From Chaetoderma sp. LZ-2023a (lineage: Eukaryota > Mollusca > Caudofoveata > Chaetodermatida > Chaetodermatidae): a stretch of DNA of 64,000 nucleotides. Shown here one piece after another: positions 3,726 to 62,058 of the stretch. The DNA lies in assembly GCA_034401795.1 (NCBI GenBank), contig CM067370.1:54238880-54302879 (forward strand). The letters run 5' to 3'. A model generated the notes under the pieces. The model saw nothing but the letters and a program-made list of their open reading frames with translations, had not been told where the DNA came from and did not search any database. The translations under genes and the position numbers were made by a program. Position 1 is the stretch's first letter. Each line of letters opens with the position of its first letter.

Positions 3726-4785
3726 GCTTCATTAAATAGCTGCCTTGAAACACTAGAATTTAAGAAGCAGTGTTTAAATCTGTGCATCATAATGTACAAC
3801 TTATTTTTAAAACGAGCCACCAGAAGATCCCATAATGTCCAGGACACAAAGATTTTCAGATGAACACACATCAACAGTTGACATACATCATGCATGGCAA
3901 AGGTCTATAATCAGAAAATAAAGAATGAAATCCTGCCAATGCATCTCCCCCTGATATACTGTATCCATCAGATGAAAAATAATTGCAAGTGAACTTAAAG
4001 GTTCTTCGAGATCTGCTCCGGCATAAAACACTTTCTATGAATCTTAAGTTTGTCAAGTATGTTAATTCTCGTGAATACAAACAGAGTTGACTGAAACACG
4101 ATCACAACTGAGGACCTCTGACACCGTATCCATGTATCAAATTTGTACTGAATATGTCAAGGAATGTTCACTGAATATATTGGAAACCATTTATTCAATG
4201 AATTTTAACCCTTATCTTTTACTGTCTCCACAAAGAAAATGTTGTACAGTCCAAGTCAATTTTGTTGGACGATGTTGCGGTCTATGATAGCTAGCACCAT
4301 CTTCCACAAAATTTGTTGGAAAATGAATACTAGTTTATATATTAATTTAATTTGAAAATTTAAAGTTTAATTTGCGAAAATAAAATCAGGACACTGTCTG
4401 ACTCAAATCTTTCCACTGAAAAACCATTGCAAGTAAAGCGCCAAAACACAGAGATCGGGTCAGGACAAGAAAATTTTAATGAACTTTTTTATGTAAGATA
4501 ATCCTGTATAAATCTCACAGAAATGAAATCATGACACTGGATTTCATCCAACTATAATGAAATAAATTATGAGAGTTAGTTAAACTCTAATACAAAAACT
4601 GGCCTGAACCAAAAAATATTGATACATTTTAAGTATTTCTGGAGAGATAGCTACGGCAAACATGAACCAAAATAGGCATATCACATCTTCAGGGTGTGGT
4701 AATGGTTACAGCTACCAACGTTTACATGAATCACAACTAAACTTGACAAAAAATGATTACAGACAAACATACAGACAGGTGGTAA

Positions 4786-4985
4786 GAATGCAGGAAATGT
4801 CAATTTCCCTTTCTCCGAGATCTAACAATACTCACCATTCTGTTACTTCTGATATACAGCTGGCCCTGACAGCGGCTCTAGGATTATAGACTTAGAAAGC
4901 TTTACCGACTCCTGGGAACCGGGTACTCGGCTCCCAACTGCCGAGTACCCGTTTACCATAGAGCTCATATTGTTTGCATAGCCAC
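4786..4985. repeat. DIRS A left inverted terminal repeat
   Basis: This is the reverse complement of 11705-11886 over most of its length, including the internal palindrome gggtactcggctccc and its mate gccgagtaccc. The outermost ~45 bases (4786-4830) differ from the right ITR. They are instead complementary to the first half of the internal complementary region, as in DIRS-1. Confidence 0.9.
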
Positions 4986-5038
4986 CAAACAAGAGAAAAC
5001 TATGGCTTGCCTCCGTGGGGCTGGGAGGCTGGGTCCGT

Positions 5039-5145
5039 AACAGAATGGTGAGTATTGTTAGATCTCGGAGAAAGGGAAATTGACATTTCCTGCATTCTCC
5101 TTCGATCAATACTCACCATTCTGTTACTTCTGATATACACCAGAT
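5039..5145. repeat. DIRS A internal complementary region (ICR)
   Basis: The first half (about 5039-5093) is the reverse complement of the left terminus. The second half (about 5094-5145) is the reverse complement of the right terminus. They meet at TTC (5094-5096). In DIRS-1 this arrangement is proposed to template joining of the two cDNA ends into a circle before recombinase-mediated integration. Here the join is visible base by base. Confidence 0.9.
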
Positions 5146-5637
5146 TTGATCAGTAACCTGGTGGGAAGGGGCAAGCCATAAATGCTAATTTTGCCCCTTG
5201 GAGAAAGATTTTAGACTTCAAACTTGACTAACGGAGACCTAAAAGGACCGTCAAGTTCACGGAACCGAATCACATTCGCGTCACAGTCCTCCCCCCTTTT
5301 TCCTCCTAAGAAAAGGGAGAGAACTAACGAACATGTATCTCGCCTGAAAACACAAATATGCCAAGAGGGTTAACTGCTCCCTGCATACTCCATGTATTAG
5401 CCTGGGAATGAGCATGAATATATAAGATGAATGAACATGATACATATCCATAATACAAAAAACTCTCACTATTGAATTACCTTATGATAATTGGACTTCA
5501 GACGTACCGCCTCCAACCATTCACCGGTTCGGCCATCAGTGACACAATCTGGTTGACATCCTCTCGCCTGACCATGCCTGCTTTAGGTTCTTTTCTTACC
5601 GAAGTGAGAAAAGGGTGAAAAGCAGTGTGGTCACTAA

Positions 5638-6664
5638 CTATCGTTTCAAAACAGCTAAAGCGAGTGGATTGGCTGAGTCTGACACATCCCTCATATAGTA
5701 ATCCGTGAATGAGGACTCACAGTGCCATTGTGCAACGGCCATGATGTCCTATAACGGAACACCATTGTAAAGGGCGGTCGAGGCGGCTATTCCTCTGACA
5801 TTGTCTGCCCTTACGCCTTGCACCTGGTGCCCAGTCGCCATCTCGTGAGTAGTCTGAATGCATTCGACCACCCAACGAGAGATAGTATCCATGGATGCGG
5901 CGCCATAAGACTTTTTATGGCAGATCCACAGATGTCTATCGTTCGACCGTAACGAGTCAGTCCGTTTCTTGTACTTAGTCAAAGCACGGACCGGGCACCA
6001 GACACTGGCATCACGATCAAACCTAGTTAACTTCGGTATAATGATCGGTTTGCCGGGATATCTCAAAGATTGGTTCTTTGACATAACCTCTGCTCTTGGC
6101 AGAAGACGCAGACCTTCTCCAGAAACAATAAATCGGTTCCTCTCTGCCGAAAGCGCATGGATCTCACTGCGCCTTCTAGCTGAGGAAGCTGCCAATAGAA
6201 AGACCGCCTTTAGAGTCAAATGCTTTAGACTAGCCGAACGCAACGGTTCGAAAGGGTGCTTGGCCAGTACATTAAGCACTAAAGATAGACTCCAGGCTGG
6301 AATGACTACCGGTTGTCTCGGTCGGAGATTGCTCATTCCCTTCAACATCACATTTAACTGGGCCACCTCTGGACTATCCCTGTTGGCTAGACAAGGGATA
6401 ACTGATGCCAAAGCTGACTTGTATCCAGCAACTGTGACGGGAGCTAGTCCTCAAAAGAACAGCTCACAGAGAAAGTCTGCTATTTGCTGATAGTGGATTG
6501 AAAGGTATCAATACCCTTTTCTTCACACCAGTCTGCAAATCTGTTAACCTTGTTGTTATATGACTTGAAGGTTGACCTCCTTCTCGCAGCCGCGATGAAA
6601 TCAGCAGCCTGTCGAGAAAAGCCTTCCGACGTGGAACGTTGTTTGATAACATCCACGCAGTCAT
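5638..6664 (-). pseudogene. DIRS A tyrosine recombinase (broken)
   Basis: This would integrate circular cDNA by a Tyr-nucleophile strand exchange. An N-terminal core-binding segment (FSRQAADFIAAARRRSTFKS) lies at about 6550-6620. The catalytic part is at 5638-6420: box I arginine in ASSARRRSEIHALS, second arginine in ADNVRGIAAS, then QWHCESSFTDYYMRD with the nucleophilic Tyr. A one-base shift near 6485 and a TGA near 6455 split the core from the catalytic part. A TAG at 5749-5751 replaces the AAG lysine codon found in copy C, cutting off the Tyr-bearing tail. Apart from this, the catalytic half is well preserved. Confidence 0.85.
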
Positions 6665-6889
6665 TGAACATTTCGGGACACTCGTGTAGGAAGCGTCCCT
6701 TGGCCTGGGAGATTATGTTCGGAATCTCGGGCAACTGCACAGGATTTTCCACCAGCAGATCTAGAAGATCCGTGAACCACGCCCTGCTCGGCCAATACGG
6801 CGCTATTAGCAGGACCAGACACGGTTCCTCCCTGACCTTCACCAAAACCTTCGGTAGAAGAATGGTGGGTGGGTACGCGTAAGCGTGCA

Positions 6890-8590
6890 TCCCTCTCCAG
6901 CTTATCGCCAGAGCGTCTGTATCGACGGCATTTGGATCTGTAATCGGCGAGACATATGTCATGATTTGAGCATTTTCCTTTGTGGCGAACAAGTCCACGT
7001 TGGGTTTGCCCCAATGCTCGAAGATCCGTCGCAGAACTGGAGGGTTGAGGGACCATTCTGTTGGCAGGATTCTCTGTCTGCGAGACAAAGCATCCGCCAG
7101 AATGTTCAATCGGCCAGGAATACGAGCTGCTTTCAAAACAACCGAGTAATTCCTGCACCATTGAATCAAGTGCCACACCCTGATACACAGAGTGGGCGAC
7201 CTGGTCCCGCCTTGGCGATTTATATATGATACTACTGTCGAATCGACCGACCGTATCAATATCACCCTGCCCCTGATCATCGGAAGGAACTCTTCCAACG
7301 CCAGTTCCACTGCCATCATTTCCAACAGATTGATATGCAGCTGACTCTCCGGGAGAGTCCATGTGCCCGAGACCTGGTTCTCCCAGGCAGGCACCCCACC
7401 CTTCCAGCGATGCATCCGTGTAGACGGACAGCTGGGGGCGGGGTAGGTGCAGCGAAACCCCTAATAGGAGATTCTGACGCTGTTTCCACCATAGAAGATG
7501 CGATATTATCGGCTCCAAAACTGGCAACAGTTTTGACAGGGGTTCTGTTCTCTGTTTCCACAGAGACATCAGATACAACTGGATAGGCCTTCGCATTAGA
7601 GCATCGTACGGGATAACCTGCTCCATGGAGACCATCATGCCCAGCATCTGAAGGAACCGCCTCGCCTTGAATGTGGTTTCCCACTCGAAAACTCTTGAGG
7701 ATGGCTAACAGAGACACCACTCTGGGCTCTGACGGGTAAACCCTGCCCTCCTCAAGGTCGAATCGCATCCCCAAATAAACGAAACGTTGAGTGGGCGTCA
7801 ACTCGGATTTCTCCTCGTTGACTATGCAGCGTAGATCTGAAAGTAACTTCAGAGTCAGAGCAGTATCCACGTTCAACCTGGCTGCCGAGTCTGCCTTAAG
7901 CAGCCAGTCGTCTATGTAGGTGTGTAGCGCCACGTTCTCTTTTCTGAGAAACGCTGTCACCGCAAGGACCACTCTTGTGAAAACCCTCGGAGCTGTCGAC
8001 AGGCCAAACGGGAGACTGTAAACTCCCATACTTGATTCTGAAACGCAAATCTCAGAAACCTGTGCCAACTCCGATTCATAGGAATGTGGAAATATGCATT
8101 TTTCAGATCGATCGATACACACCACATTCCTTTCCTCAATCCCGCATTACCGACCTCGGCGTTTCCATCTGGAACCGAGGCGTATGGATAAACCAATTTA
8201 ATGGCCTGAGATTGAGTATGGGTCTCCATCCCCCTGTGCTCTTGGGGACAAGGAACATGTTTGAATAGAAGCCTGGAGTGTTTCGATTTGCTGGTTTTAT
8301 TGCTCCCTTCAGAAGCAAACCCGACACTTCCTTTTGAACGGCTTCTAACTTGTCTGGCTCCCTTGGTACGGGTGTCCAGACAGGTGCCAAAGACAGATTT
8401 TGTGGTGGAAAGTCCCACCACTCCGGCATGTAACCCTGGGATAACCATCCCAGGACCAGACTGTCTGACGTCACACCTTGCCAGGCCTCGACGAAACGCA
8501 TGAGCCTTCCACCCACCATAGACGCCTCGACGTCTAACGGGGTTGTCCGGCTCGCAGTCCGCCCCCCCACTCTTTCTTAACGAGAGAGAG
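6890..8590 (-). pseudogene. DIRS A reverse transcriptase-RNase H (frameshifted)
   Basis: The polymerase would copy element RNA into cDNA. RT fingers (GGWRPILNLRPLNWF) lie near 8190-8250, motif A (VSIDLKNAYFHIP) near 8090-8130 and motif C (TYIDDWLLKA) near 7885-7920. The RNase H domain follows, with INLLEMMAVELALEEF and a second acidic site in RSVDSTVVSYINRQGG (related copies read SDNST), then ADALSRRQ near 7080. These segments occupy different frames. Shifts fall near 8150, 8025 and in the palm-RNase H connection near 7650-7400. No single product is possible. Confidence 0.85.
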
Positions 8591-8687
8591 AGAACCATTT
8601 CGTTCTAGGCACGACGGGTATAACTGGCACCGCTGTTCCTGTCGCACAGGCGCGGTCCAGGCGGATATGAAGGGAGCTTTCGTACCC

Positions 8688-10761
8688 TCAGGTACGCTTC
8701 GGCCCCTTCTGTCCGCCCTTTGAGGCCTTACCCTTACCCTTCCCCTTGCCCTTCCCGCCTCTAGGGCGGTCAGGAGCAACATTGGGGAGGGTAGGCGCCT
8801 CTACAACCTTCCTGGGCTTCTTCGCCGGCGGCGGCTCTGAAACCCCAGCTGAAGCAGAAGTCGCAACAGGCCTAGCTTTCGCCTTGCCCTTATGCTTCTT
8901 CTGCTCCTTTGAAGGTTGTCCCGTTAGCGGTTTCCCCACAGGCCCTAGTGCATGCGCTTGCCGCACTAGCTCTAGCTGTAGGTTTACCGCTAACTGATTC
9001 TGCGCGATACTGGCGGTATCCTCTAAGATGGCCCACGCTTGGCCACCGAAGATGCTAGGCCCTGTCAGGGGTGTCCCAAGGAGACGCTCCCTGACTGCCG
9101 TAGCCGGACGCATATGGTCAATGACCATTTGCCTCCTGGATTTCGTCACACGCGCTTGCACCCTTGCCAATGCGTCCATCGACAGCACCAGGCCGTCATT
9201 GACACATGAAAGCGCCACAGGTGGCACAGGGTGGCCTGCCCCGCTTCAGCCCACACCGACTGAAGGAGACGATAAGAGTGGTTGACAGCGCTCATCGCTG
9301 CCCTCACACCCTCATCGCATAGGGACAGGACTTCTTCCTGGTGTACCTGAGACTTGTCCACAAGTGCCGGACCGGGGTGACCCGGCACGGCACTCTGGAC
9401 GCCCAGTACCCATCGGTCATCCTCCGTGACCGACGGGACTACACCATACCTGTCGTATTCCCCCCGCGGAATACGACATCTTGCCCGCACCTCCCTGGAG
9501 GCCGCAGGGAGCTGACCCTTGGTCATCAGTTGTTTGCTATAAATAGCATCCAACCATTCTATGAACCGTGGATCCAGTCCCACTGACTGGATCCGGGCCG
9601 CGGGCAAAATCCCCGTCCTGATCGACGCAACCGACGGACGGGGCGCATCTTCATCGGCCGTGGCCGAAACCACAGACGGGTCAACCCTGGCTAGCCACGC
9701 CAGAGCATCTGACCAATCTACCTCCGATGAAGACACCCCCGCAAACACGTCACCCGTTGACGTGCTCACGGGTCTGCCAGCCACGGCCTCCCAGCAAGGA
9801 GCCACGGCTGACACGCCAGGCACTCCGGTACCACACGGTTCCGCCGCCACCCCATGAAACACTCCGGTCCATGGGGTAGGTCCGCACGGAAAACCGTACG
9901 GACCCGTAGCAGTCGCGGAACCATAGCCGGACACGGGCGCCCACGGCACCCCACGTCCGACTGCCGGACCAGGCGAGATAGGTGAGTACCACGCCCGGCC
10001 CGGCACACCCGTTCCCGTGACGGCTGGTGCCAAACCAAGCCGCACGGAACCGGTGCACGGTAACGGATTTGCCTCAGCCACAGGCGGAGCCGCTGACCTG
10101 GCTTGCGCCAAACCAGACAAATGGAGGCCGGTTCCGTCTAGGACGGAATCAACCTCCATATTCTCCACCTGCGGCTTCACGGGCCGCAGCAACCTCTCCT
10201 CCTCGGCCTCCTCGTCTTCAGACTCCGAAGAGTCGTCACTAGACGAGTCAACCGTGGAACCGTCCTGGCGGACGGCTCCCACACCTGACGGACCGGCCAC
10301 CGCTACTGGACCACCCGGAGGTGGCCGCAGAGAAACAGAAACCCGTCTGGCCGAAGCCAGACGGGACTGCCAGGGGGCCGTACGAGACGGCCCCCTCGGT
10401 AACCAGTCCAGAATCCTGTCCGAGGACAGGATCCGTACCAGGCATGGGGAGAAACTGCCCCCCAACCTTTGGTAGCAGGGACGACACCAGCGTGGTCAGA
10501 ACGCTATGCAGAAAAACCCTGCAGAGCCGGACCAAACCACGCCGGCGGTGCCATCTCCGCCACCTCCAGCTGGGGACGTGGAGCACCCGCACCGGCCGCT
10601 CCACGATTTACTCTCGGACCGCCTGACCCCGCGTCAGACCCAGCCAAGTCCTTCTGGGCAAGGAACTTAACCATCGTTTCGACGGACCACACTGCACAAA
10701 CATTACACCTATGATCTATATTACACAGGGCACACATAAAACAGACATGGTCCTTGAACAT
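8688..10761 (-). pseudogene. DIRS A gag-like region (Cys/His N-terminus, frameshifted)
   Basis: This probably encodes the RNA-binding or particle protein. From ATG at 10761, the start reads MFKDHVCFMCALCNIDHRC and continues NVCAVW, a compact Cys/His cluster suggesting zinc binding. A proline/glycine-rich stretch follows, then an acidic patch (SSSDDSSESEDEEAEEE, near 10190-10240), an unrecognised conserved block (DDRWVLGVQSA, ALVDKSQVHQEEVLSLC), and a basic tail (GGKGKGKGKGKASKGGQKG) near 8700. The frame is broken near 10500. It breaks again near 9240, where A has four Gs and copy C five. The DNA is GC-rich compared with its surroundings and packed with perfect hairpins (see findings). Confidence 0.7.
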
Positions 10762-11704
10762 TACACGGACAAACTTATGGCAGTCGTCACATGATGGCGG
10801 GGCTGGCTTGGCCTATAAAATAAGCACAAACCTACAATAAACAAGCGGAACGAGACCCGGATGGAAGGCAGACAATTAATTTTCAAATAATTTGACTCAT
10901 AAATTAACCGTAACCTCCCCGCACCCCACCCCGCCACGTTACAACAACGATCGCATTGATTATGACGACAAGTACGCGGCGGGCACAACACACCCATAAT
11001 AGATCCTCCAGGATGTGTAACGGCTCCAGGAATCATATCGCATAGCATTCAGGGTATATTTACTAATCAATATAAATTATACTCCTAACGAACGCAGCAC
11101 GATATGTGAAGAAAACAACAAAATGTATAACAAAACTGCTGTCTCACACGGTAAAACCGCAGACCACACATCTACTCAAGAATTTTGAAACCACCGATCA
11201 TTGCAAACCGATCGTGATCGCACGTAAACTTGATCATTCTAAAGTTTCCGGTACCATTTTTAGTACGCAGCACCCAGAATAAGATGCGCGAATTAATGAA
11301 AAAATTTTTCTTCACATAAACATCCGAGCGACCGGGTGTGACGTCACCCGCTCGGATTCTACGGAGAACGACGTCAGCCGATATTCGTGTTAGAAATACC
11401 GTAGCAAACACCTATTTTCATATCTGCCGATCGCCTGTTGGGGTTTAAAGAAGGCGATCGTCTGGCATATATCGTTGTTAGCACACGTCCCAGATTCTAT
11501 GGGGACAGAAATTGGAACATGCGACACAACGAAATTTAGAGACCTAAGTCTTTTAACTATGGATAATAAAGAACAATACAACCTGGTTGTCTTGGGCGGT
11601 ATTCTCCATAGTCCTTAGTTAATCCTTTCAGAACACACAAACTATCACTGATTAAAGACTTAGATTATTTTAAAACACTAAAATCCTTAATGCAAAAAGC
11701 ATGT
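10762..11704 (-). promoter_or_regulatory. DIRS A 5' leader and presumed promoter region
   Basis: The noncoding segment between the right ITR and the gag ATG holds no credible ORF. It contains a perfect CRE (TGACGTCA at 11339-11346) inside a larger palindrome (ccgagcg ... cgctcgg). The same segment is almost unchanged in copy E and decayed in copy C. Promoter function is inferred from position only. Confidence 0.45.
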
Positions 11705-11886
11705 ATTGCTCTTGTCGCTATGCAAACAAGAATGAGCTCTATGGTAAACGGGTACTCGGCAGTTGGGAGCCGAGTACCCGGTTCCCAGGAGTCGGTAAAG
11801 CTTTCTAAGTCTATAATCCTAGAGCCGCTGTCAGGGCCAGCTGTATATCAGAAGTAACAGAATGGTGAGTATTGATCGAAGGAGAA
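11705..11886. repeat. DIRS A right inverted terminal repeat
   Basis: Inverted match to 4800-4985, ending gagtattgatcgaaggagaa at 11886. The outer ~20 bases are specific to this end and are copied in reverse complement in the second half of the ICR (5094-5115). Confidence 0.9.
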
Positions 11887-13012
11887 AGATGGATGGCAAT
11901 CCAGAAAGATACATAAACATACTTATCGCAAATTCGCAATATACCCATGCATTTCATGCATGGTGGATAAAAAGCTACATCTAGTAGTTTAACTTTACAA
12001 ATTTTGCAGATCTATGTTTTGAAAGCATCACAGCTGATGATATCTTTTTGCCAAATACTTCCTTTATTACAGCTAAACCTGTTCAAGAGACCAGCTGCCT
12101 TTTGCGTCCAAAATGATGTTGTGTACCTTTCTCGAGAAACACCTCCGTTGAGAGAGTTAGACAATCACAATCTGTTGTCATCAAAAAGTATTTTCTAGGA
12201 TATTAACATGCATTTAATGCATGCACATATAACACGAACACATGAATAAGTTTACATATTTATTTGGCGACAGACATAAACCGGTCACGCCTGCACTTAT
12301 GTCTAATGTACTGGTTGCCTCCCCTGGGAAGGCAACACGACGCTTGAGGCATGTAACATGTATTTAAAAATACATATTTATAGATTACTTAGACTGGCCA
12401 AAAACAGATTCTGCAGTGATCTTAACAAAGTCTATTTACACACTTTGAAGACAATTAAAAAAAAATTCAACACTGAAATGCCTGGCTTGATAACCACGCA
12501 AAACATTCCAGTGATCAAGCAAAACATTAATCTTCTTTTGGTCTGCAAATGGACATATTCTATGAGAAAATTTCAATTTCTTGAATAATTTTGAGACTTA
12601 ATGGTTTACGTCAGACTTGACTGCACATTGTTGCCATAGAAATATTTATACTAGAATGCACAGTCGATGACAGGCCATCGCAAATCCCCATGCTTCCACC
12701 AACTTTGACGTTCTGCCCCCACCCTGACACTACCTTATCCTGGGTGCGGATGTATCGCAATCCGTAATCATATGAGTAACTAACATACAAAATTTGGTTG
12801 AATTCCACTAGTTTTGGAGATCGCCAGATGGACGGATAGATGGACAGGCATAGGTGATTGCAATATCACTTCCATTTTTTCAAAACGTGTGGGGATAACA
12901 AGATGTTCTTCAGCTGACATGCCGCGTCACATCCATATTGCATTCCCCAAAGGTGTTGTGGTGTGACGCTTTAATTAACTAACAATAATTAATGACATGC
13001 AATGACAAATAC
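11887..13012 (-). other. GluN1 intron 3, 5' part
   Basis: This is intron sequence between exon 3 and DIRS A. No coding segment was recognised. It carries palindromic MITE family 1 copy 2 (about 12440-12600) and a low-copy-looking stretch at 12620-12900 that resembles generic interspersed repeat. Confidence 0.5.
12440..12600. mobile_element. Palindromic MITE family 1, copy 2
   Basis: It contains gaaatgcctggcttgataa, an aacattccagtg return arm, and the distal stretch tctgcaaatggacatattct shared with the copy near 26400. It has no ORF. Confidence 0.5.
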
Positions 13013-17447: not shown

Positions 17448-18460
17448 TTATTTTTTCAAAATCGACAAGGCGAGAGGATTAGAGGAGTCACGGAGATAAT
17501 GGTCTGTAAAACTTGACTCACAGTGCCACTGAGCAACCGACATAATGTCATCCACAGGGACCCCATTAAATAGGGCAGTGGATGTCACTACGCCGCGGAC
17601 ACTGAGCCTTGGCCACGTCAACCTGCTTCCCGGTGACGGATTTATGACAAAACTGAATACATTCTACAATCCACCTGGAAATGGTGTCCTTCGACGCCCT
17701 GCCATGGGGTTCAATATATGACAACCATAACGCTGACTGGTCGGTGCGCCACTCCGATGTACGTTGTTTGTACCGGAGCAGCGCCCGGACGGGACACCAT
17801 ACTTTAGAATTAGGATCATATCTAGTTAAAGTTGGCAAAACAATAGGTTGACCTGGATATTTCAAAGACTGATTCTTAGCCAAGAAATTAATCCTAGGTA
17901 GCAGCTTAAGGCCTTCCCCTGTAACCACAAAACGGTCAACCTCGGCTGATAAGGCATGAATTTCACTCCTACGCCTAGCCGAGGCCGCAGCAATTAAAAA
18001 TACAGATTTAAGAGTTAATAGTTTCATAGAAATGGAACTAAGTGGTTCAAAAGGCTTATCACCTAGTACCTGAAGCACCAGAGATAAACTCCAAGACGGA
18101 ATCACCGGGGGATTCCTTGGTCTTAGATTGCCCATGCCTTTAATTAATACATTTAATGTACTTACTTCATCACTTCCCTTCTTAGCCAAGCAAGGAATAA
18201 CAGACATTAAAGCTGACTTATAACCAGCAATAGAGTTAGGCTTGAGGCTATAGGCATCATACAGGTGACAGAGGAAATCAGCTACTTCCTGAATAGATGA
18301 ATCCATTGGATCAATACATCTTTTTGAGCAGCACTCTGCAAATCTGTTGATTTTATAATTATATGCTCTGGAGGTTGACCCCCTCCTGGCTTTGGCCATA
18401 AACATGGCTGCTTGCTCAGAAAAGCCCTCCTTAATTTTAGATTCCTTGACAACATCCACG
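17448..18460 (-). pseudogene. DIRS B tyrosine recombinase (one frameshift)
   Basis: The core-binding part (EGFSEQAAMFMAKARRGSTS) lies near 18380-18440, and box I arginine (ASARRRSEIHALSAE) near 17950-17990. The second arginine (SVRGVVTST) and the Tyr segment (QWHCESSFTDHYLRD) are readable only after a frame change near 17601-17606. There gctcagtg has apparently lost a CA compared with the expected reading. The stop is TAA at 17448-17450. Apart from that two-base loss, all catalytic boxes are present, so the lesion is recent or an assembly error. Confidence 0.85.
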
Positions 18461-18467
18461 CAGTCAA

Positions 18468-20271
18468 TCAGAACATTGACGGATTGTTGTGAAGGGCCTT
18501 GCCCTGGAAGATAATGTCGTCCATCAGAGGCAGAGGAACCGGATTGCAGACCAGAAGGTCCAGCAGATCCGTATACCACGATCGGCTTGGCCAATCCGGG
18601 GCGATCAGGAGCACTTGGCACTCCTCCTGCCGGATTTTCTGAAGAACTTTTGGAATCATGATTGCTGGAGGGAATGCGTATGCATACATTCCCGCCCAGC
18701 TGATAGCTAACGCATCTGTTGCGAAAGCGCTTGGATCTGGAATCGGAGAGACGTACGTCGTCATCTTCGCATTCCTCTTCGTTGCGAACAAATCGATGTT
18801 GGGCCACCCCCAATGGTCGAACAGACGATCCACCACACTTTGATTTAGTTGCCATTCCGTGGGTAAAACACTCATCCTTCGGCTCAATGAGTCTGCTAGC
18901 AGATTTAACCTTCCCGGAATATGAACTGCTTTCAAGGTAATCCTGTGATCCAGGCACCAACAAAGCAGTCTCCATGTCATCATACAGAGACTGGGCGACT
19001 TCGTTCCGCCCTGGCGGTTTATGTCAGTCACTACAGTTGAGTTGTCTGAACGAATAAGAACAATCTTGCCCTGAACTTTCCGTAAGAAATGTTCCAGGCC
19101 CAGGACTACTGCTCTTAGTTCCAGTAGATTGATATGTTCCTTTGACTGATCCAGATCCCACAGCCCTGATATTGTGGACTCTTCCAGGCAAGCTCCCCAC
19201 CCCTCCATCGATGCATCTGTATACAGTCACCTGAGGGTGGGGAGGGGTTAGCAAAACCCCCAACAGGAGATTCTCTGTCTTCAACCACCATTGCAGGTGG
19301 TGAATTAGAGGCGCCAACACTGACACATTCGAGTCCAGTGAACCTGTACTCTGGGTCCATTGTGTCATGAGAAAAAGCTGGATCGGCCACCTGCGTAAGG
19401 CGGCCTGAGGAATGACTGGTTCCAATGAAACCATCAACCCCAGCATTCTCAAGTAAACCCGTGCCAGGACATGACGACTGTCGCACACTGACTGAATTAC
19501 TGAGATGAGTTTCTGAACTCTCTCCTGAGTAGGATAAACATATCCTGTCTCTAGATCGAAGAACATCCCCAGGTAAACAAACTTCTGGGATGGAGTCAGC
19601 TCTGATTTTTGAAAATTTATCATCCAGCCTAAATCCGTGAGCATTTTCAAAACAATCTCCAGATTGGTCGATAAACTTTCCTGGATGTGTGCTTTTAACA
19701 GCCAGTCATCTATGTACGTGTGGACTGCTATGCTTCTCCTGCGGAGGTATGCTGTGATCGCAAGAACCACACGGGTGAAAACCCGAGGAGTGGTGGAAAT
19801 TCCGAAGGGTAACACCCTGAATTCCCACTGTCTGCTCTGGAATGCAAATCTCAGGAAGCGACGGAAACTCCTCGCTATGGGAATGTGGAAATAAGCATCC
19901 TTCAAATCTATTGAAGCTGTCCACATTCCCTTCTCTAACCCCGCCAACACCGAGCGCACAGTCTCCATCTTGAAACTGGGCGTCTCTATGAACTTGTTCA
20001 ACGGCTTGAGGTTGAGAATTGGTCTCCACCCTCCGGTGTTTTTTGTTACCAAGAACACGGTTGAATAGAAGCCAGGACACTTTTGTGCCGGCTGAATAGC
20101 TCCTTTTAGTATGAGCGAATTTATCTCCTCCTCGATACACAACCTTTGCTCCGGATCTCTCGGATTCGGAGTCCAGATTGGCACTAGAGACAGTCGCGAT
20201 GGGGGGCCTGTCATCCAATCGGGATAATACCCGATTGAAAGCCATCGCAAGACTAAACGGTCCTGAGTCAA
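18468..20271 (-). pseudogene. DIRS B reverse transcriptase-RNase H (one frameshift)
   Basis: The RT is open over about 350 codons: GGWRPILNLKPLNKF (residues ~80-94), motif A ASIDLKDAYFHIPI with catalytic Asp at ~122, LPFGISTTPRVF, and motif C YIDDWLLKA at ~186-194. The RNase H part has INLLELRAVVLGLEHF, the RSDNSTVV acidic site, LADSLSRR and IDLFATKRNAK. The two parts are put out of frame at about 19218-19224, where tatacagatg appears to lack a CA. This is the second such loss in this element. The predicted intact product would be typical of DIRS RT-RH. Confidence 0.88.
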
Positions 20272-20358
20272 CCGTTCCCACTCTCCTTTGCCAGAAACAC
20301 CGGAGTGGTTCTCACCGCGGTAACCGGCCCATCAGGCACGATTACCACGACCAGATCC

Positions 20359-22349
20359 TCACGCACCACGCCCAGCACCGCGCGCACCTCGGTGCGCGGG
20401 TGGCTGCCTGGCTGACTGCGCCTGAGAAGCCTGCGCCCCCCTCACTGCAGGCCGAATCGCACGCGGCCGAGGCCGACGCTGCGATGGTGGTTGGCCTCTG
20501 ACCTGGCCACCTCCACCTCGAGCCTGCAGGGGACGATACGCAGGGGGTGCGGCGCAAACGCGCTCCCGACGGAGCACTTCAAACTGCTCGCGCAGCGCCC
20601 TCTGGTTATTGACCAGAGTAACCATCTCCTGGAGGTGTCTACATCCCTCACCTCCAAAGAGACCAGGACCTGTCATAGGCGTACGCAGTAGCCTATTGTA
20701 CAGGTCCTGGGACGGGCACAGATTGTCCAAGGCAAATGTGCGCCTTGCCCGGACACTCCTAGTCACCGCCCGAGTCATGCAGTCCAGAGCCAGGTCGATA
20801 CCCCCTGTAACAGCTGGGAGACGTGGGACAGAGCGGCAATCGAAGCTCTCCCACTCTCCTCCGCATCACGCAACGCGGCATTTGCCGAACCCAACACGTT
20901 CGAACACAAGACTCCCGTGTCAGAACGGGAGCCTGGCCGCGCATCCTCACCCAAAGCCGCGCGGTCATCCACACTCGGCTTGGGTACACCACTGTACCTC
21001 TGGTAATCCAGGGGCACGATGCGGCAACGCCGGGCCACCTCGCGAGGGGCCTTCGCGAGACGCCCATTCGCCTTAATGGACGTCTCCGCAGCCTCGAACA
21101 TGTCAACGACATGCTCTGCCAGCGGCAGAGATGGCATCGCGTTAGCAGTAGCCTTACCAGCTAACCACGGCCTGTGGTCACGCTGGCTAGCCGACTGCTC
21201 CACGGGCAGACCTGGCCTAACACTTACCAGCCACTGGCAAGCGTCAGACCAATCCTCTTCCGTGGCTAGCTGCGAGCGCTCTACAAGACGGGGGCCTTCG
21301 TCTTCCTCCTGAGCGCAAGCAGCAGAGCTTGACGGCGGATATGTTGATACCCCTGGCCAGCCAGGGAAAGCATGCGGGCCCAAAAGAACAGGCATGCTAA
21401 TCTCACTGGCCTGACCAGGAGCAGGCGCCGTGGTAGAGCGCGGGGCAGATACCGCCCCACCACGGCCCTGGCCAGCACCAGCGACACTCTCGGCAAGCCG
21501 AGGTATGCGGTAACGCTGGCCATCAGCAGCGCCCAGGGCCACCTTCTGAACCGTGAACTCTACTCCTGCGTGAGTAGAGCCATGGACTATGTCGCCTGTA
21601 TTCCCCGCGAGGGGTGCACAGACGTCATAATCCATGGCAACGTCTTCAGACGGCGACCCTAACAGGTAATCCTCTTCCTCCTGGCCAGAAAGATTAGACT
21701 CCGGGTCAGCAAAGAGAGCTAACCCGGACTGGCCAGGAAAGGTGCCATAGGAGGTACTGGCACCCGCGCCGTGCGGATATCCCTGGACTGATAAGCAGCC
21801 CGCGGGTTCCAGCGACAGCCGTCCACGACCCCTCGGCGCGGCACCAAGCCTGCTGCCAGGGTCGTGGAACGCACCCTCTAATGGGGCCACCTCTGAATCT
21901 ACGAACAACGGAAACGGCCTACGGACAGGTGATTCAGAGGTGGGGATTACCTGCTCCGAAGCAGATGATGAGGCCAACAAAGGATTTGGTCCAGGAAGCA
22001 TGCCACGAAGCAACTCTGGAACCAAATCCTTTATTGTCCTCTTCATCTCTCCCAACATCTCGGTCCGGAAGGCCTCCATATCCACCGCGGACGAGGCCTT
22101 CCTCTTACCCTTCTTACTCACACCCTCTCTTTTCTGCTTCTTCTTCTCCTCCTTCACCACCTTGTCCTTCGCCTGTAAGCACAAGAATTCGGACATTAGT
22201 TCGCCCCCCCAGTGCTTACATATCTCGCAATTAATCAAAGGACCGCAGGGGCTACGCTGATAGCAGAGATGAGGAAGAAACCTCTCCTCCAAGAAACGTC
22301 CACAGGATGAGCAACCAGGTCTCTGAAACAGGGCAAAGGACGAGGGCAA
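20359..22349 (-). pseudogene. DIRS B gag-like protein (524-codon ORF plus shifted tail)
   Basis: Starts at ATG 22349. It opens with a Cys/His-rich segment (CSSCGRFL, LPHLCYQRSPC, INCEICKHWGGEL), which could bind zinc as in element A. A lysine-rich stretch follows (KDKVVKEEKKKQKREGVSKK), then acidic and low-complexity sequence, and a conserved block ending near VSQLLQG. The last ~140 codons (TRSVRARRTFALDNLC, MTGPGLFGGEG) lie in another frame, entered at a five-G run near 20812. They match the A/C segment LTGPSIFGGQA. The region is GC-rich and hairpin-dense. The function is inferred from position; no known capsid fold is recognisable by eye. Confidence 0.65.
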
Positions 22350-23204
22350 TGAGCAACTTAGTTAAGCTTAGAAACTTAAACCAACTCAGCGAGGGAAAAT
22401 GATCATAAAGATCAATAATCATCTGAAACCAGCGTTGGACAAAACTTTAATTGTTAATAAAGAGCAAGGCTGATTATGACGTCATTAATCCTATGACAGG
22501 AAAAAATCGATCCATAACAAACATCCAAGTGCAAGGACGAATTGTATCCATAACCAGAACATGTACAGAATGGACATTCCGACTACACACCCATCAGATA
22601 AATACTGATAACAATGGTAAATACAGTTAATTTTCTCTAAAATAATTAACATCACCTCATATCAATAATTAGATACACTTGTATAGACAAACCATTCAAC
22701 GTGATGACCTGGAGCACTCCACCAAGACTACGCCTCCTAACACTCTCCACCTTAGGGGAAGGAGTTGGATCAAGAGGGCAAAGTGAGAAGACCTTTATAC
22801 TAGGCCTCCGACTCACTGGACATAGACTTTTTGGTTAGATAACCTAACAGTATTAGTAGGAAATGGAACCAAGGTGGAGAAAAACAAACTCTCTGATGCT
22901 GTGATGTCCATTACATATCCTCACCTAGACCTGTGGACATAAACACAAAGAGAGATTAGTATTATATAGCACCTAGTTGAAATAAACCAACTAAACAAGG
23001 CGCTTATCACGGTAAACGCGAGTCCCGGAAACACATTACACCGGGAAAAAACTCGCTAATTTTACTAGAAGTCACCTGATGTATAGGTCCTGGACCCTCC
23101 ATTGGCGAAGTATTCCGTCCTGCCATCTTAATCAGGGGTTATCACTTCTAAATAACACTCAAAAGACTTTGAAAAGAGTTTAGAAAAGCTCTAGCACAAA
23201 AACA
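22350..23204 (-). other. DIRS B 5' leader
   Basis: The roughly 850-base noncoding segment between the right ITR and the gag ATG is AT-rich and has no ORF of interest. It presumably holds the transcription start. No CRE was seen here, unlike A. Confidence 0.5.
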
Positions 23205-27029: not shown

Positions 27030-28340
27030 GTCTAGTCTACTAGCTAGCCAACTAGCCAATTACACTAAACTTCTAGCCTAGTCCACTAGCCTAGTCTACT
27101 AACTAGACTTCTATCCTAATTTACTAGCTTAGACTTCAAGACATCAATATTATCTCACAAGCATAGACTTCTAATCTGGTCTACTAGCCTAGCATCTGGA
27201 CTTCTAGCCAGCTAATCTATTAGCCTAGACTGCTTTCATATCCTACTAGACTAGACTTCTAGTCCAGTTTACTAACATATTAGCTTAGACTACCAGCCTA
27301 GATTACTGGACTACTTGCTTAGACTTCTAGCCTAGTCTATTAGTCTAAAAACCCAGACATCTAGCCTAGTCTATTAACCTACTAGCTTCGACCTCTAGTA
27401 TAGACTTCTAGACTAATCTACTCACCTACTTCACTAGACTTCTAGCCTAGTCTACTAAGCTAGACGTCTAGCCTAGCGTACTAGCCTAGACTTCTAGTCT
27501 AATAGCCCATACTTCTAGGCTAGACTATTAGCTTAGCCTTCTAACCAAATCGACATGACTTCTAGCCTAGTCTACTACCGTAGAGCTCTTGTCTAGACTT
27601 CTACTAGACTAGACCTCTAGCCCAGTCTACTAACATATTAGCCTACACTTGTTGCCTAATCCACTAGTCTAGACTAATCTACCCAGCTATGAGACTAGAC
27701 TTCTAGCCTAGTCTACTAACCTAGACCTCTATACAAGCCTACTAGCCTAAACTTCTAGTCTAATAGCCCATACTTCTAGCCTAGTCTACTAGACTAAGAT
27801 ATCAAGTCTAGACTACTAGCTTAGCCTTCTAACCAAATCAGCATGACTTCTAGCTTAGTCTACTAGCGTAGAGCTCTCGTCTAGACTTCTACTAGGTTAG
27901 ACCTCTAGCCCAGTCCACTAACATATTAGCCTACACTTCTATCCTAATACACTAGTCTACTTGCATAGAGTTCTATCCTAGACGTCTATCCTAGTCTACT
28001 AGTATAGACTTCTAGATAATCTAATAGCCTACTAGCCTAGTCTACTAACCTAGTCTATTAGCCTAGATTTCTAGTCTTGACCTTTAGGTTAATATCCAGA
28101 TTTCTAAACCAATCTACTAGACTTCTAGCCTAGTCTACTAGCCTCATAGCATAGACGTCCAGCCGAGTCTACTCACCTATTAGACTAGATTTCTAGCCTA
28201 TGCTTCTAGGCTAGTATATTAGCCTAATAGTCCATGTCCAGATTAGTCTACGAGTATAGATTTCTAGTCTAGTCTACTACCCTAGACTTCTAGCCTAATC
28301 TAGTTGCCTACTAGCCTAGACTTATATCCTATATTGTTGC
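27030..28340. repeat. Degenerate CTAG-rich tandem array
   Basis: About 1.3 kb built from variable phrases of tctagcctagtctactagcc type, with spacing that is not strictly periodic. CTAG and TAGACTAG recur on both strands because the unit is nearly self-complementary. A related array is at 53641-54782 and 55554-56365. Confidence 0.85.
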
Positions 28341-31440: not shown

Positions 31441-32780
31441 GACACCTGTCACTAAGCATGTCCGCGCATGCGCAATGGAGCCCAAATAGGAAACATATTC
31501 ACTTTTCTAAATTTAATTGCCAAATATTATAAACAGATTCTCAAATCATTCCCATGCGGGGTGGCTGAGGCCGGGTCGTAGTGATTGAACGGTAAGTATG
31601 TTTTATAGTGGTTAATAAGACTACAGACCAACCCGCAAGGGGGGTCTGTTGGGGGGGGGGGTGATTACACCGCAAAAACATCTATACCGTTCAATCACTA
31701 CTTGCTAAACCCGTAGATTTGGTCAGTGCCCCACTTAAAAACCCTTGGTGGGTGGAGATTTGAGAATCATTAAACACGGATAAAAATTAAACAACTCATA
31801 TCTAAATGTTAATAAATTAACATAATAGTGCATCCATAACGAATCACACAGCGATTATCAAACAAGGAAAATTGTCAACTCAATGAAATAAACAAAACAA
31901 GAGAATATTCTCACCATATCTGACAGACATACAGACTAATGAGATTGGTGAGATGTGCTTGGTAAATGGTCCGTGGCTTGATTTGTTAAAATCATTATAT
32001 TTCTAAAAAAGGAGGCCGCTGGGCTCTGATCCTTTAAACAGAAAGAGGTAAAAGTTGATTTAGATTTCCAACCTGTGACTTGCATGACATCGTCCAATGA
32101 TGAGCCGGCGAAGAGCGAAGGAGGTAGCCATACCACGATGGTTGAGAGCCTTGACATGGGCTAAATTGATCTCACCTGGGAGGCAATCTCATAGCATAAT
32201 TTTATGGTCCCACAGATCCATCTGGCAAGTGTGGCCTTAGAAACTGGTCTAGTCACCTCCTCGACATACGGAACCCATAAGTGTGAAGAATCAGATCTTT
32301 TAAAATTGGTACGACGTTTATAGACTTTTAAGGCCCTGACAGGACACCAGAATCTGTCAGACGGCGAAAAAGACGATAAAGATTTAAGAATAATAGGTTT
32401 GGCTGAGTAACGGTTAGACTGGGTCTTCGATAAAAAATTCCTTCTGGGATATAAAACTAGACCATCCCCAGATTCGATAAACCTGTCTTTTTCTGCGGAA
32501 AGAGCATGAATTTCGGATCTTGTCCTAGCTGAAGTGGCAGCAACAAGGAAAACACCATTAAGAGTCAATAGTTTGAGACTGATAGATCCAATTGCCTCAA
32601 AATGGAGACTTGCCAAAACTAGAAGAATCAAGGCCAAATTTCAGAAAGACAAAGGCTTAGCCACTGGAGGACAAATATTGCCCAATCCTCTGATAAAACC
32701 ATTGAGACCCCTCAAATCCTTGATATCAGCATTCAGAAGACAAGGAAGAGAAGAAGCCAAAGAAATCTCTAACCCCTAAC
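31441..32780 (-). mobile_element. Truncated DIRS-like element D (third family)
   Basis: It retains only the 3' part: ITR/ICR-like sequence at 31455-31745 and a recombinase. The inverted pair gtagtgattgaacggta (from 31579) and taccgttcaatcactac (from 31687) resembles an ICR. GCGCATGCGC at 31464-31473 recalls the ITR palindrome of element B. RT and gag are absent and the outer left end was not found. Confidence 0.7.
31936..32777 (-). pseudogene. DIRS D tyrosine recombinase, catalytic Tyr lost
   Basis: Box I arginine is in ATSARTRSEIHALSAEKDRF (near 32480-32540), and the conserved FWCPVRALKVYKRR follows. The terminal part reads VTGWKSKSTFTSFCLKD near 32030-32075. The residue at the nucleophile position is Cys (TGT), where A and B have Tyr. 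A TGA near 32642 (at a Trp position) and a frame change near 32160 also break it. It is dead as an enzyme. Confidence 0.75.
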
Positions 32781-39610: not shown

Positions 39611-40744
39611 TTCTCCTTCGATCAATACTCACCATTCTGTTACTTCTAATATACAGCTGGCTCTGACAGCTGGCTCTAGGACTATAGACTTAGAAAGCTT
39701 TACCGACTCCTTGGAACCGGGTACTCGGCTCCCAACTGCCGAGTACCCGTCTACCATAGAGCTCATTCTTGTTTGCATAGCGACAAGAGAATACATGCTT
39801 TTTGCAGTTGGAAAGTCTTAAGATTGTTTAAGCCTAAGTCTTTTTACTGTGATTAATTGTGATAGCTTGTGCGTTCTCAAAAGGATATTTTGGATTAATA
39901 TGGACGCAGCCGAGGATATCAGGTCGTATATTTCCATGTTATTCCATAGTTAAAAGACTTAGGTCTCTAAAATTTCGTATGTGTCGCATGTTCCAATTTC
40001 TAACCCCAAAGAATCTGGGACGTGTGTTAACAACGAAATATGACAGATGATCGCCTTCCTTTAAATCCCCAACAGGCAATCAGCAGATATGAAATTAGGT
40101 GTTGGCTTATCGGTGTTTTAACACGATGATCGGCTGACGTCATTCTCCGTAAGATCCGAGTGGGTGTCGTCACACCTGTGTTTCTCGGATATTTATGTGA
40201 AGAAAATGTTTCATTAATTCGCGCATCTGATTCTGGGTGCTGCGTACTTTAATTAGTACCAGAAAAACTATGGAATTTTCAAGTTTTGCGTGTTATCACG
40301 ATCTGTTTGCAATGATCAGTGGTTTCAAAATTCTTGATTTAGATGTGTGGTCTGCGGTTTTACCATGTGCTACAGCAGTTTGTTTACATTTTGTTGTTTC
40401 TTCACATATCGTTTTGGCCTTCATTAGGAGTATAATTTTTATTTATTAGTAAATATACCCCGAATGCTATGCGATATGATTCCTGGTTCCGTTATACATC
40501 CTTGAGGATCAGTGTATGGGTGTATTATTGCCCGCTTCGTTCTTGTCATCATAATCAATGCGATCTTTGCTGTAATGTTGCGGGGTGGGGTGCGGGAGGG
40601 TGACAGTTAATTTATGGTCAATATATTTGAAAATTAATTGTCTGCCTTCCATTTTTGTTTCGTTCCGCTGGCTTATTGTAGGTTTGGTTTATAGGCCAAG
40701 CCAGCCCCGCCATCATGTGTCGAGTGCCACATATCGTACGGGTT

Positions 40745-42481
40745 CTATGCAAGGACCATGTCTATTTCCACTGTACTAAGTGTAGTCTTGACAGTAGGTG
40801 TAACGTTTGCGCTGTGTGGTCAGTCGATATGATGCTTAAGTTCCTTGCCAGAAGGACTTGGCAGGGTCTGACGCGGGGTCAGGCGGTTTGAAAGTAAATC
40901 GTGGAGCATCCGTTTCGGCCCGTGGGGGTGTTCCGCGTCTGCAACCAGAGGTGGCGGAGATGGCACCGCCGGCGTGGTTTGGTCCGGCTAGGCAAGGTGT
41001 CTTGCATAGCGTTCTGCCCACGCTGGTGTCGTCCCTGCTGCCAAAAGTTGTATGGTAGTCTCACCCCATGTTTGATTCGGACCCTGTCCTTGGACAGGGT
41101 TCTGGACTGGACGCCGAGGGAGCCGTTTCGTACGGCCCCCTGGCAGTCCCGTCGGGATCCGGCCTGATGGGTTCTGTCTCCGTGCGGCCACCTCCGGGTG
41201 GTCCAGTAGCGGTTGCCAGTCCGTCGGGCATGGGAGCCGTCCGCCAGGACGGCTCCATGGTTTTCCTTGTTTAGTGACTACTCTTAGGGGTCTGAAGATG
41301 AGGAGGCCGAGGAGGAGAGGGTGCTGCGGCCTGTGAGGCCGTGGGTGGAGAGCATGGAGGTCGATTCCATCCTGATGGAACATGTCCTCCATCTGTCTGG
41401 CCTGGCGCAAGCCAGGGCAGCGGCTCTGCCCATGGTTGAGGCCACGCCGGTACCGGTCACCGGTCCCATGATGGTTGGTTTGCTGCCAACCAACACGGTG
41501 ACGGGTGTGGCCGGCCAGGCATGGTACTCACCTATCTCGCCTGGTCCGGCGGTCAGACATAGGGTGCCATTGGCGCCCGTGTTTGGCCACGGTTCCTCAA
41601 CCGCTATGGGTCCGCACGGTTTTCGGTGCAGGCCTACTCCATGGACTGGTGTGTTCCATGGGGTGGCGGCGGAACTGTACGGTACCAGAGTTCCTGGCAT
41701 ATCAGCAATGGCTCGTAGCCGGGAGGCCGTTGCTGGTAGAGCCGTGAACATATCAATGGGTGACGTGTTCACGGGAGTGTCCTCCTTGGAGACGGATTGG
41801 TCTGAGGCTCTGGCTTGGCTAGCCAGGGTGGACCCATCTGTGGTTTGGACCACGGCCGAGGAGGATGTACCCCCGTCCATCGGTGCATCGATTAGGACGG
41901 GGATCTTGCCCGCAGCCCTGATCCAGTCTGTTGGACTGGATCCATGGTTTATGGTGTTGCTTGATACTAGTTATAGCAAACAACGCATGAACAAGGGCCA
42001 GCTTTTTCCGGCCTCCATGGAGGTGCAGGCGAGGGGTCGTATTCCACGGGGGGAATACGACAGGTATGGTGTTGTCCCATCGGTCACCGAGAATGACCGC
42101 TGGGTACTGGGTGTTCAGAGTGCTGGAGCGGGTGGCCCCGGTCCGGCACTTGTGGACAAGTCCCAGGCACACCAGGATGGAGTCCTGTCCTTATGCGATG
42201 AGGGTGTGAGGGCAGCTATGAATGCTGTCAACCATTCGTATCGCCTTCTTCAGTCGGTGTGGGCTGAAGCGGGGGCAGGCCACCCTGTGCCACCTGTGGC
42301 ACTTTCGTGCATCAATGACGGCTTGGGGCTGTCTATGGATGCACTGGCAAGGGTGCAAGCGTGTGTGGCAAAGTCCAGGAGGCGAATGGTTCTTGACCAT
42401 ATGCGTCCGGCTATGGCAGTCAGGGAGCGTCTTCTTGGGACACCCCTGACAGGGCCTAGCATCTTCGGTGGCCAGGCGTGA
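40745..42481 (+). pseudogene. DIRS C gag-like region
   Basis: The Cys/His start (CTKCSLDSRCNVCAVWS, 40765-40820) lacks the ATG seen in A (a frame change at 40745). The downstream 386-codon frame (41321-42481) is uninterrupted through the position where A is frameshifted. That shows the ancestral gag read continuously into LTGPSIFGGQA. Conserved stems with compensatory changes lie at 41084-41103 and 41354-41392. Confidence 0.7.
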
Positions 42482-43240
42482 GACAGAGAATAGAACCCCT
42501 GTCAAAACTGGTGCCAGTTTTGGAGCCAATAATGTCGCATCTTGTAGGGTGGGAACAAGCGTCAGAATCTCCTAGTAGGAGTTTTTTCGCCGCACCTACC
42601 CCAACCCCACCTGTCCGTGTACACGGATGCATCGCTGGAGGGATAGGGGCCCTACCTGGGAGAACACCAGGTCTCGGGCACATGGACTCTCCAAGAGAGC
42701 CAGCTGCATATCAATCTGTTGGATATGATGGCAGTGGAACTGGCATTGGAAAGGGTTTCTTCCAAAAGTCAGGAGCAAGGCGATATTGATACGGTTGGGC
42801 AACTCGACATTAGTATCATACAGAAATCGCCAAGGCGAGACCAAGTCACCCACACTATGTACCTAAGTGTGGCACTTGATTCAACGGCGCAGGAATTACT
42901 TGGTTGTTTTTTAAAGCAGCTCATATTCCTGGGTGATTGGACATTCTGGCCGATGCTTTGTCTCGCAGACAGAGAATTCTGCCAACAGAATGGTCTCTCA
43001 ACCCTCCAGTTCTTCACAGGATCTTCGAGCATTGGGGCAACCCCAACGTGGACTTGTTCGCCACAAGGGAAAATGCTCAAATCATGACTTATGTCTCGCC
43101 GATACAGATCCTAATGCCGTCGATACAGACACTCTGGCGTTAAGCTGGAGAGGGATGCATGCTTACGCGTACCAACCCACCATTCTTCTACCGAAGATAT
43201 TGGTGAAGATCAGGGAGGAACCGTGCCTAGTCCTGCTATA
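42482..43240 (+). pseudogene. DIRS C RNase H remnant
   Basis: It starts at the deletion junction near 42480. Recognisable pieces are ELALER-like, GQLDISIIQKSPRRD (acidic site degenerate), WSLNPPVLHRIFEHWGNPNV and WRGMHAYAYQPTILLPKI. They are spread over three frames. Confidence 0.75.
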
Positions 43241-44400: not shown

Positions 44401-44889
44401 CTATATGACCGCGCTGCTCTTCTTCCTTTTTTGGCATTTGTAAGAGAGAATTAAGAAGCAGACATGATCGAGCGAGAGGATATCAACCAATTGTGTCACT
44501 GATGGCCGGACAAGTGAATGGTTGGAGGCTCCAGGTCTGAATTCCAAATATCATGAGGTAATTCACGATTGAGAGTGTTTTGTATTATGTCTATATATCA
44601 TGATCATTCATCTTATATATTCATGCTCATTCCCAGGCTAATATATGCAAAGAGCAGTTAACCCTCTTGACATATTTGTGTTTTCAGGTGAGATGCATGT
44701 TCGTGAGTTCTTTCCCTTTTCTTAGGAGAAAAAGGGGGGGGGCAGTGATGCGAATGTGATTCGGTTCCGTTAACTTGACGGTCCTTTTTTAGGTCTCCTT
44801 TAGTCAAGTTTAAGTCTAATTCTTTCTCCAAGGGGCAAAAGTAGCATTTATGGCTTGCCCCTTCCCACCAGGTTACTGACCAAATCTGG

Positions 44890-44992
44890 TGTATATCAGA
44901 AGTAACAGAATGGTGAGTATTGATCGAAGGAGAATGAAGGAAATTTCAATTTCCCTTTCTCCGAGATTTAACAATACTCACCATTCTGTTAC
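44890..44992. repeat. DIRS C internal complementary region
   Basis: gatcgaaggagaa is followed by ggaaatttcaatttcccttt. This joins the complements of both element ends, as in A but in the opposite orientation. Confidence 0.85.
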
Positions 44993-45240
44993 GGACCCAG
45001 CCTCGCAGCCCCACGGAGGCAAGCCATGGATTTCTCTTGTTTGGTGGCTATGCAAACAATATGAGCTCTATGGTAGACGGGTACTCGGCAGTTGGGAGCC
45101 GAGTACCCGGTTCCAAGGAGTCGGTAAAGCTTCCTAAGTCTATACTCCTAGAGCCAGCTGTCAGAGCCAGCTGTATATCAGAAGTAACAGAATGGTGAGT
45201 ATTGTTAGATCTCGGAGAAAGGGAAATTGAAATTTCCTTC

Positions 45241-59246: not shown

Positions 59247-59342
<96 letters not shown>

Positions 59343-59760: not shown

Positions 59761-59764
59761 TATT

Positions 59765-62008: not shown

Positions 62009-62058
<50 letters not shown>

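Follow-up and report, generated by a model that had tools for sequence, protein, structure and literature searches.

Hairpins along DIRS-type retrotransposons suggest selection for folding of the element RNA

The DIRS-type retrotransposons of two families, found together in one 64,000-nucleotide stretch of DNA (the window), fold in excess of nulls that preserve their proteins, and this excess is absent from a gypsy-like element in the same window. Their hairpins go far beyond the needs of the protein code, which suggests that the RNA of these elements has been selected for folding along its length. That selection acts at the level of RNA is shown in part, by the retention of G.U over A.C pairs and by a few two-sided changes. 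We hold with moderate confidence that these DIRS RNAs carry genome-scale ordered RNA structure (GORS), kept by selection on the sense (genomic) RNA.

The DIRS elements of the window

Copy A (4785-11888, sense on the minus strand) is recognised as a DIRS element by a PF00078 reverse transcriptase (RT) match, by inverted terminal repeats (4826-4982 against 11717-11874 inverted, 98.7%), by an internal complementary region (5037-5139) matching both element ends and by protein similarity to a second family, B, in RT, RNase H-YR and the gag-like ORF. Family B (17515-22361, minus strand) is separate and only distantly related; its ORFs, also on the minus strand, are RNase H-YR (17566-19023), RT (19024-20331, PF00078 at 1.8e-22) and gag-like (20775-22361). 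PF00078 exceeds its cut-off in ORF 7316-8146 of A as well as in ORF 19024-20331 of B, and the gag-like ORF sits upstream of RT in both. The two families share the RNase H-YR ORF at 62% identity over 218 aa. A gag-like ORF, RT, an RNase H-YR region and, in A, inverted terminal repeats and an internal complementary region are what these elements have in common with the DIRS1-like elements of Dictyostelium, Xenopus, Anolis and others. The tyrosine recombinase itself gave a sole match, Phage_int_SAM_4 in B, which is below the cut-off (E 0.0022), as is a Dam methyltransferase match (PF05869, E 0.0089) in ORF 6480-7460 of A.

A second copy of A's family, C, lies on the plus strand (39611-45241). It is 84% identical to A over A 9034-11498 and 90% over A 4789-7558, and has no counterpart of A 7558-9034; its gag-like region, also on the plus strand, spans 40860-42480, and stems were counted in ORF 41288-42481. 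The end piece of a third copy (62840-64000, plus strand), 99.7% identical to A over 773 bases, leaves the window before gag.

The gag-like ORF of A (9146-10495, minus strand, 449 aa) is the most hairpin-dense region of the element. It is 34% identical to ORF1 of family B over 194 aa, and a further N-terminal piece resembling that ORF (33% over 46 aa) lies at 10660-10797. Since neither Pfam (E up to 10; A, B and C) nor the PDB sequences (E up to 1; A and B) gave a match to these ORFs, the name Gag is given by position. DIRS1 ORF1 has been reported to have a LAP2alpha-like kinship (PMC4495291); the same Pfam search found none for the ORFs of A, B and C. Comparison with viral contigs yielded no confirmed relative of the A gag ORF, nor did viral and genome contigs yield one for the family B RT, and Rfam had no match anywhere in the window at gathering scores.

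Other elements accompany them. The gypsy-like element at 45199-48825 matches RT, RNase H and, weakly, an integrase zinc-binding domain, and its first ORF has a PNMA match slightly under the Pfam cut-off. It served as a control. A LINE-like ORF (59765-62092, RVT_1 at 1.8e-31) lies in 59068-62479 with repeat arrays by both ends. A YR ORF fragment of a further DIRS type, its protein 47-48% identical to A and B, occupies 32164-32775.

Stems and folding energy against shuffled sequences

A preliminary description of this DNA had listed eleven perfect inverted repeats following one another in the gag region of A. Ten are perfect where it placed them; the one given as 10259-10264/10269-10274 is a perfect stem too, but lies one base further on (10260-10265/10270-10275), and a perfect stem given nine pairs from 10373 in fact has arms of 10 bp (10372-10381/10387-10396). 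The chain is longer than that list: the ORF contains three more stems with arms of 7 (9364, 9413, 9491) and six more with arms of 6.

Counting perfect stems with arms of 7 or more and loops of 2-15, the A gag ORF holds 12. This exceeds both dinucleotide shuffles (1.34 +/- 1.13; none of 200 reaches 12) and a codon permutation that preserves the protein (2.01 +/- 1.33; 0/300), and it equally exceeds a permutation that also keeps dinucleotides (2.08 +/- 1.29; 0/60). Five of its stems have arms of 9 or more, against 0.2 expected. By codon permutation the gag ORF of C has 8 stems against 1.78 (0/300) and that of B 7 against 1.26 (0/300; 1/60 with dinucleotides kept), none of the B stems reaching an arm of 9. 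Elsewhere in A, ORF 6661-7704 has 3 against 0.71 (9/300) and ORF 7316-8146 has 4 against 0.66 (1/300). Perfect stems are not in excess by count in the RT (1 against 1.44) or RNase H-YR (2 against 0.86) ORFs of B, and the three gypsy ORFs give 2 against 0.57, 1 against 0.71 and 0 against 0.60. Against dinucleotide shuffles, the YR region of A has 5 stems where 1.03 are expected and RT-YR of C has 7 where 1.83 are (0/200 each), with no excess in the 5' region of C (0 against 0.61). The stems show no clear preference for a codon register.

Folding energy also shows an excess. The mean minimum energy of 100-nt windows, compared with codon permutations on the sense strand, gives z of -10.2, -9.8 and -9.0 for the gag ORFs of A, B and C. 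Outside gag, it gives -5.5 and -5.6 for two overlapping RT/RNase H ORFs of A, -6.3 for the RT of B and -5.0 for its RNase H-YR; the controls stand at 0.03 (gypsy) and -1.9 (LINE). The excess survives two stricter nulls in the gag ORFs of A, B and C and in the RT and RNase H-YR of B. With protein, codons and dinucleotides all kept, these five range from -4.6 to -9.7 (A gag -8.2, B gag -9.7, B RT -5.2), and gypsy is at 0.4; permutation inside 50-codon blocks gives -12.1 for A gag, -12.6 for B gag, -5.6 for B RT and -0.1 for gypsy. In a scan of the entire 64 kb against local dinucleotide shuffles, the three kilobases with the lowest mean z on the sense strand are those of the three DIRS gag regions (kb 9, -3.39; kb 21, -3.10; kb 41, -2.75, with -3.06 on its antisense strand). 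The kilobase with the 32-kb YR fragment has no folding excess in that scan (-0.32 and -0.09).

We also followed the published 350-nt method, using a 60-base step (200 for background) and 15 dinucleotide shuffles. All nine DIRS regions are over-folded on the sense strand, by 12.7 to 30.8%: gag 30.8%, 5' 26.1%, YR 20.4% and RT-RNase H 18.4% in A; gag 26.7%, RT 16.8% and RNase H-YR 12.7% in B; gag 21.3% and RT-YR 14.3% in C. The window-weighted excess is about 23% for A, 19% for B and 17% for C. The gypsy element is not over-folded (1.6%), and the LINE and the background at 31-37 kb give 5.1% and 5.3%. Gag has the largest excess within A, within B and within C, and copy C, which carries the deletion, is less structured in gag than A. 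The idea that structure would be confined to gag nevertheless fails, as the RT, RNase H-YR and 5' regions of A are over-folded too, and so is the second DIRS family.

Pairing between copies and between strands

The hairpins of A described here, all on the minus strand, were compared one by one with C. Folded on their own, ten stretches of A gag range in z from -1.17 to -5.95. The hairpin at 10413-10432, ATCCTGTCC-tc-GGACAGGAT (fold of 10405-10440, z -3.24), has become ACCCTGTCC-tt-GGACAGGGT in C by a two-sided change; this C hairpin is real, although it lies at 41081-41100 and not at 41084-41103 as first placed, and the reported T-A to C-G change in ATCCTGTCC/GGACAGGAT stands. The other reported paired change, G-C to A-T in TTCCGTC/GACGGAA, is also as described, its C hairpin being correctly placed at 41365-41380, and CTGCGGC/GCCGTGG of C does pair by way of two wobbles. 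At 10121-10159, two nested perfect 7-bp stems fold as 10 + 7 pairs (z -5.95); an inner G-C pair of A corresponds to A-T in C, where the loop has lost one base.

Several stems persist with partial change. The 10-bp hairpin at 10372-10396 (loop 5, z -4.02) has one A.C mismatch in C. The 10-bp hairpin at 10342-10365, capped in the sense RNA by C(UUCG)G (z -5.45), has two changed pairs that are G.U in C, one of them changed on both sides, and has lost one pair. The hairpin at 10256-10279 has 10 Watson-Crick pairs in C and nine plus one G.U in A (fold of 10250-10285, z -3.71), and a 7-bp hairpin at 10169-10189 is retained in C with two G.U pairs. A stem at 10090-10120, which C(GCAA)G caps in the sense RNA, folds with a z of only -1.17; two of its U.G pairs are C-G in C, and one of its G.U pairs is a G.G mismatch there. 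The 8-bp hairpin at 9849-9877 (z -2.45) carries one U.G in C, the 10-bp hairpin GGATCCAGTC/GACTGGATCC at 9570-9594 (z -3.50) has one mismatch, and the 11-bp hairpin at 9451-9478 (z -5.55), in a stretch that codes CRIPRGEYDR, differs in its outermost pair alone. The clearest single case of pairing kept between the copies is the 15-bp hairpin at 9738-9772 (fold of 9728-9778, z -5.10). Its three G.U pairs in A are all Watson-Crick in C, which elsewhere in the stem has one U.G, one A.C and an outer G.G mismatch.

To place these cases in a tally, one-sided changes of Watson-Crick stems were scored as G.U, which RNA tolerates, or as A.C, its mirror on the other strand. The position of each arm in the other copy was set purely by sequence identity, allowing a shift of up to 3 bases, and a stem was excluded when either arm fell below 60% identity. 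Seeded from A, gag contributes 12 stems with arms of 7 or more, including one at 10605 that another alignment counts as 5'; the 9511 stem, to which another alignment gave two G.U and two other mismatches, is outside the tally. All pair-change statistics rest on two alignable copies, A and C, of one genome. In gag, stems with arms of 7 or more show 14 G.U changes and 2 A.C, where observed substitution rates predict 9.3 G.U (one-sided p 0.013); over all regions the counts are 20 and 6 (one-sided p 0.017). The preference is weaker with arms of 6 or more (gag 21:8, p 0.086; all regions 35:15, p 0.042).

Changes on both sides of a pair are few. In gag, with arms of 7 or more, the distinct tally is three that keep the pair and one that breaks it. 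Seeded from A, 3/3 keep it (permutation mean 0.72; 57 of 2000 permutations), and seeded from C, 2/3 do (mean 0.21; 15 of 2000), the two directions not being independent because two of the three kept changes appear under both seeds. Arms of 6 or more give 3/3 (63/2000) and 2/3 (301/2000), respectively, so that the result from C seeds becomes weaker. In RT-YR, with arms of 7 or more, 1/1 and 2/2 keep the pair (140 and 115 of 2000); in the 5' region 1/1 does (503/2000) from one seed, and the other seed has none. Divergence between A and C is 15.3% at paired and 19.0% at unpaired sites of the A structure. The corresponding figures for the C structure, 14.2 and 27.6%, are biased, as C's own mutations unpair sites, and so this comparison is not main evidence. 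Within single sequences, interruptions of stems with 7 or more Watson-Crick pairs are G.U rather than A.C by 10:2 in the gag regions of A, B and C, with 6:8 in RT-YR, 0:1 in the 5' region of A and 10:10 in three background stretches; these numbers, gag included, are too small to weigh.

The two strands give a less simple picture. Over 100 nt, with codons and dinucleotides kept, the gag excess on the antisense and sense strands is 21.9 and 23.1% in A, 24.1 and 21.6% in B and 24.3 and 17.9% in C. Perfect stems of any origin make both strands fold, and therefore an antisense excess is expected. Over 350 nt, sense exceeds antisense in 8 of the 9 DIRS regions, A and C not being independent, and the exception is C gag. 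Stems containing G.U are abundant in sense gag (A 15 against 3.4 and B 10 against 2.9, 0/100 shuffles each; C 9 against 3.7, 2/100) and less so in antisense (A 4 against 1.4, 11/100; B 2 against 1.25, 38/100; C 3 against 1.1, 9/100). RT-YR of A shows 15 against 6.1 in sense and 6 against 4.4 in antisense. The direction is reversed in RT-YR of B (antisense 9 against 3.3, 1/100; sense 7 against 4.9, 19/100), and RT-YR of C has an excess on both strands (10 against 3.9 sense, 6 against 2.6 antisense). The 5' region of C has no excess of G.U stems, and the sense strand of the LINE has some (8 against 3.2). This strand test is weak alone because composition accounts for a large part of the difference between sense and antisense: after shuffling, A and B gag still yield about 2.4 times more G.U stems in sense. 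Stable tetraloops are not clearly commoner in sense (A 6 against 5, B 2 against 2, C 2 against 0).

Ordered RNA structure and its alternatives

We propose a model where many consecutive short stem-loops would run along the element, densest in gag, encoded at least partly by synonymous codon choice; selection on the sense (genomic) RNA would maintain them for as long as the lineage stays active. Their role may be global self-folding rather than a single local signal. Such folding could compact the genomic RNA in Gag particles, and it could reduce pairing with antisense transcripts, leading to less dsRNA and less small-RNA attack.

Alternatively, template switching (snap-back), while the element is reverse transcribed or its DNA replicated, could both generate the stems and keep their arms matched, selection on RNA contributing little or nothing. 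Long perfect stems are numerous, gag is over-folded by energy about as much in antisense as in sense, and two-sided changes from one Watson-Crick pair to another are expected from this process too, which is reported both to give rise to hairpins in RNA genes and to preserve them (PMC8794818). Those hairpins share perfect stems and two-sided changes with the DIRS elements, but the mechanism described there would not, on its own, predict a preference for G.U over A.C, and gives no reason for the 14:2 ratio in gag or for three G.U pairs of A at 9738-9772 where C is Watson-Crick. If template switching were host-wide it should also affect the gypsy element, which shows none of the excess, an argument that leaves a version confined to the DIRS elements untouched. 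We consider this a serious explanation, though less likely than selection on RNA. Of the two proposals made in the preliminary description, selection on RNA structure has the stronger support, from an excess lying at least partly in synonymous choice and from G.U over A.C, the pair statistics coming from two copies. The two could also act together, template switching generating perfect stems by mutation and selection preserving them.

Structure might instead be selected in single-stranded DNA, as cDNA or a circular intermediate, and over-folding on both strands and the circular intermediate of the published DIRS model (PMC3266345) would suit this; given that G.U exceeds A.C on the sense strand, and that the sense excess is the larger in 8/9 DIRS regions at 350 nt (A and C not independent), we find it improbable. 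A packaging, dimerisation or translation signal local to gag would agree with the folding excess of A, B and C being highest in gag, which also has the most perfect stems. The stems are numerous and scattered, however, and over-folding of RT, RNase H-YR and the 5' region in A, and of family B, argues against one local packaging or priming signal, so that such a signal seems more improbable still. The least probable account, an artefact of high G+C, codon use, protein sequence or local composition, starts from the 63% G+C of A gag and is ruled out, as A gag exceeds the dinucleotide, protein-and-codon, combined and local-block nulls.

Ordered structure over the whole length of the genome is tied to persistence and reduced innate sensing in RNA viruses. 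RNAs with such structure are poorly sensed by innate pathways, and a mean folding excess above 3% has served as the threshold for GORS (PMC3950689). All nine DIRS regions pass it, but the LINE (5.1%) and the background (5.3%) do as well with our settings, and the threshold alone is therefore non-discriminating here. Published mean excesses are about 15% for SARS-CoV-2, 7.5-10.7% for HCV and 23.4% for the highest vertebrate RNA virus (PMC7642675). The average of A, about 23%, is near that top value, a rough comparison only, since shuffles, step and regions differ from those of the SSE program. Like the GORS viruses, the DIRS elements have consecutive stem-loops through coding sequence, no single regulatory site and an excess over dinucleotide shuffles; unlike them, they are integrated tyrosine-recombinase retrotransposons with the strongest folding in one gene (gag, 21-31%).

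Among retroelements, SHAPE has placed up to 30% of Ty1 and Ty3 RNA and about 40% of HIV-1 RNA in stable regions, as mosaics in A-rich RNA (PMC11381356). These too are genomic RNAs with stable regions inside coding sequence, whereas the DIRS structure is predicted from sequence and its excess is found in 9/9 regions tested. We found no earlier report of RNA structure in DIRS coding regions in open-licence PMC titles and abstracts, and the terms 'secondary structure' and 'hairpin' are absent from the main text of two DIRS papers (PMC3266345, PMC9210276). It is tempting to speculate that DIRS-order retrotransposons generally keep ordered RNA structure over their whole length, matching in density the most structured RNA viruses known, and that this structure shields genomic RNA from pairing with antisense transcripts of the same element and from the small-RNA and dsRNA pathways, with gag as both protein gene and folding scaffold. 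We offer this broader claim tentatively and think it may well prove too wide.

If GORS does occur in an integrated retrotransposon, the many genomic copies would provide a system in which structure could be measured directly. Erosion after insertion and evolution through G.U steps would become measurable, and selection on RNA could be better separated from template-switch mutation as the source of perfect stems.

Two further observations were made in the window. In a tandem-repeat region at 27200-28200 the minus strand is strongly over-folded (kb 27, mean z -2.49). Both inverted terminal repeats of A contain a hairpin of 12 perfect pairs, CGGGTACTCGGC / GCCGAGTACCCG, around a loop of 8 bases, at 11749-11780 and, by repeat alignment, at about 4920-4951 in the right repeat; C has this hairpin unchanged.
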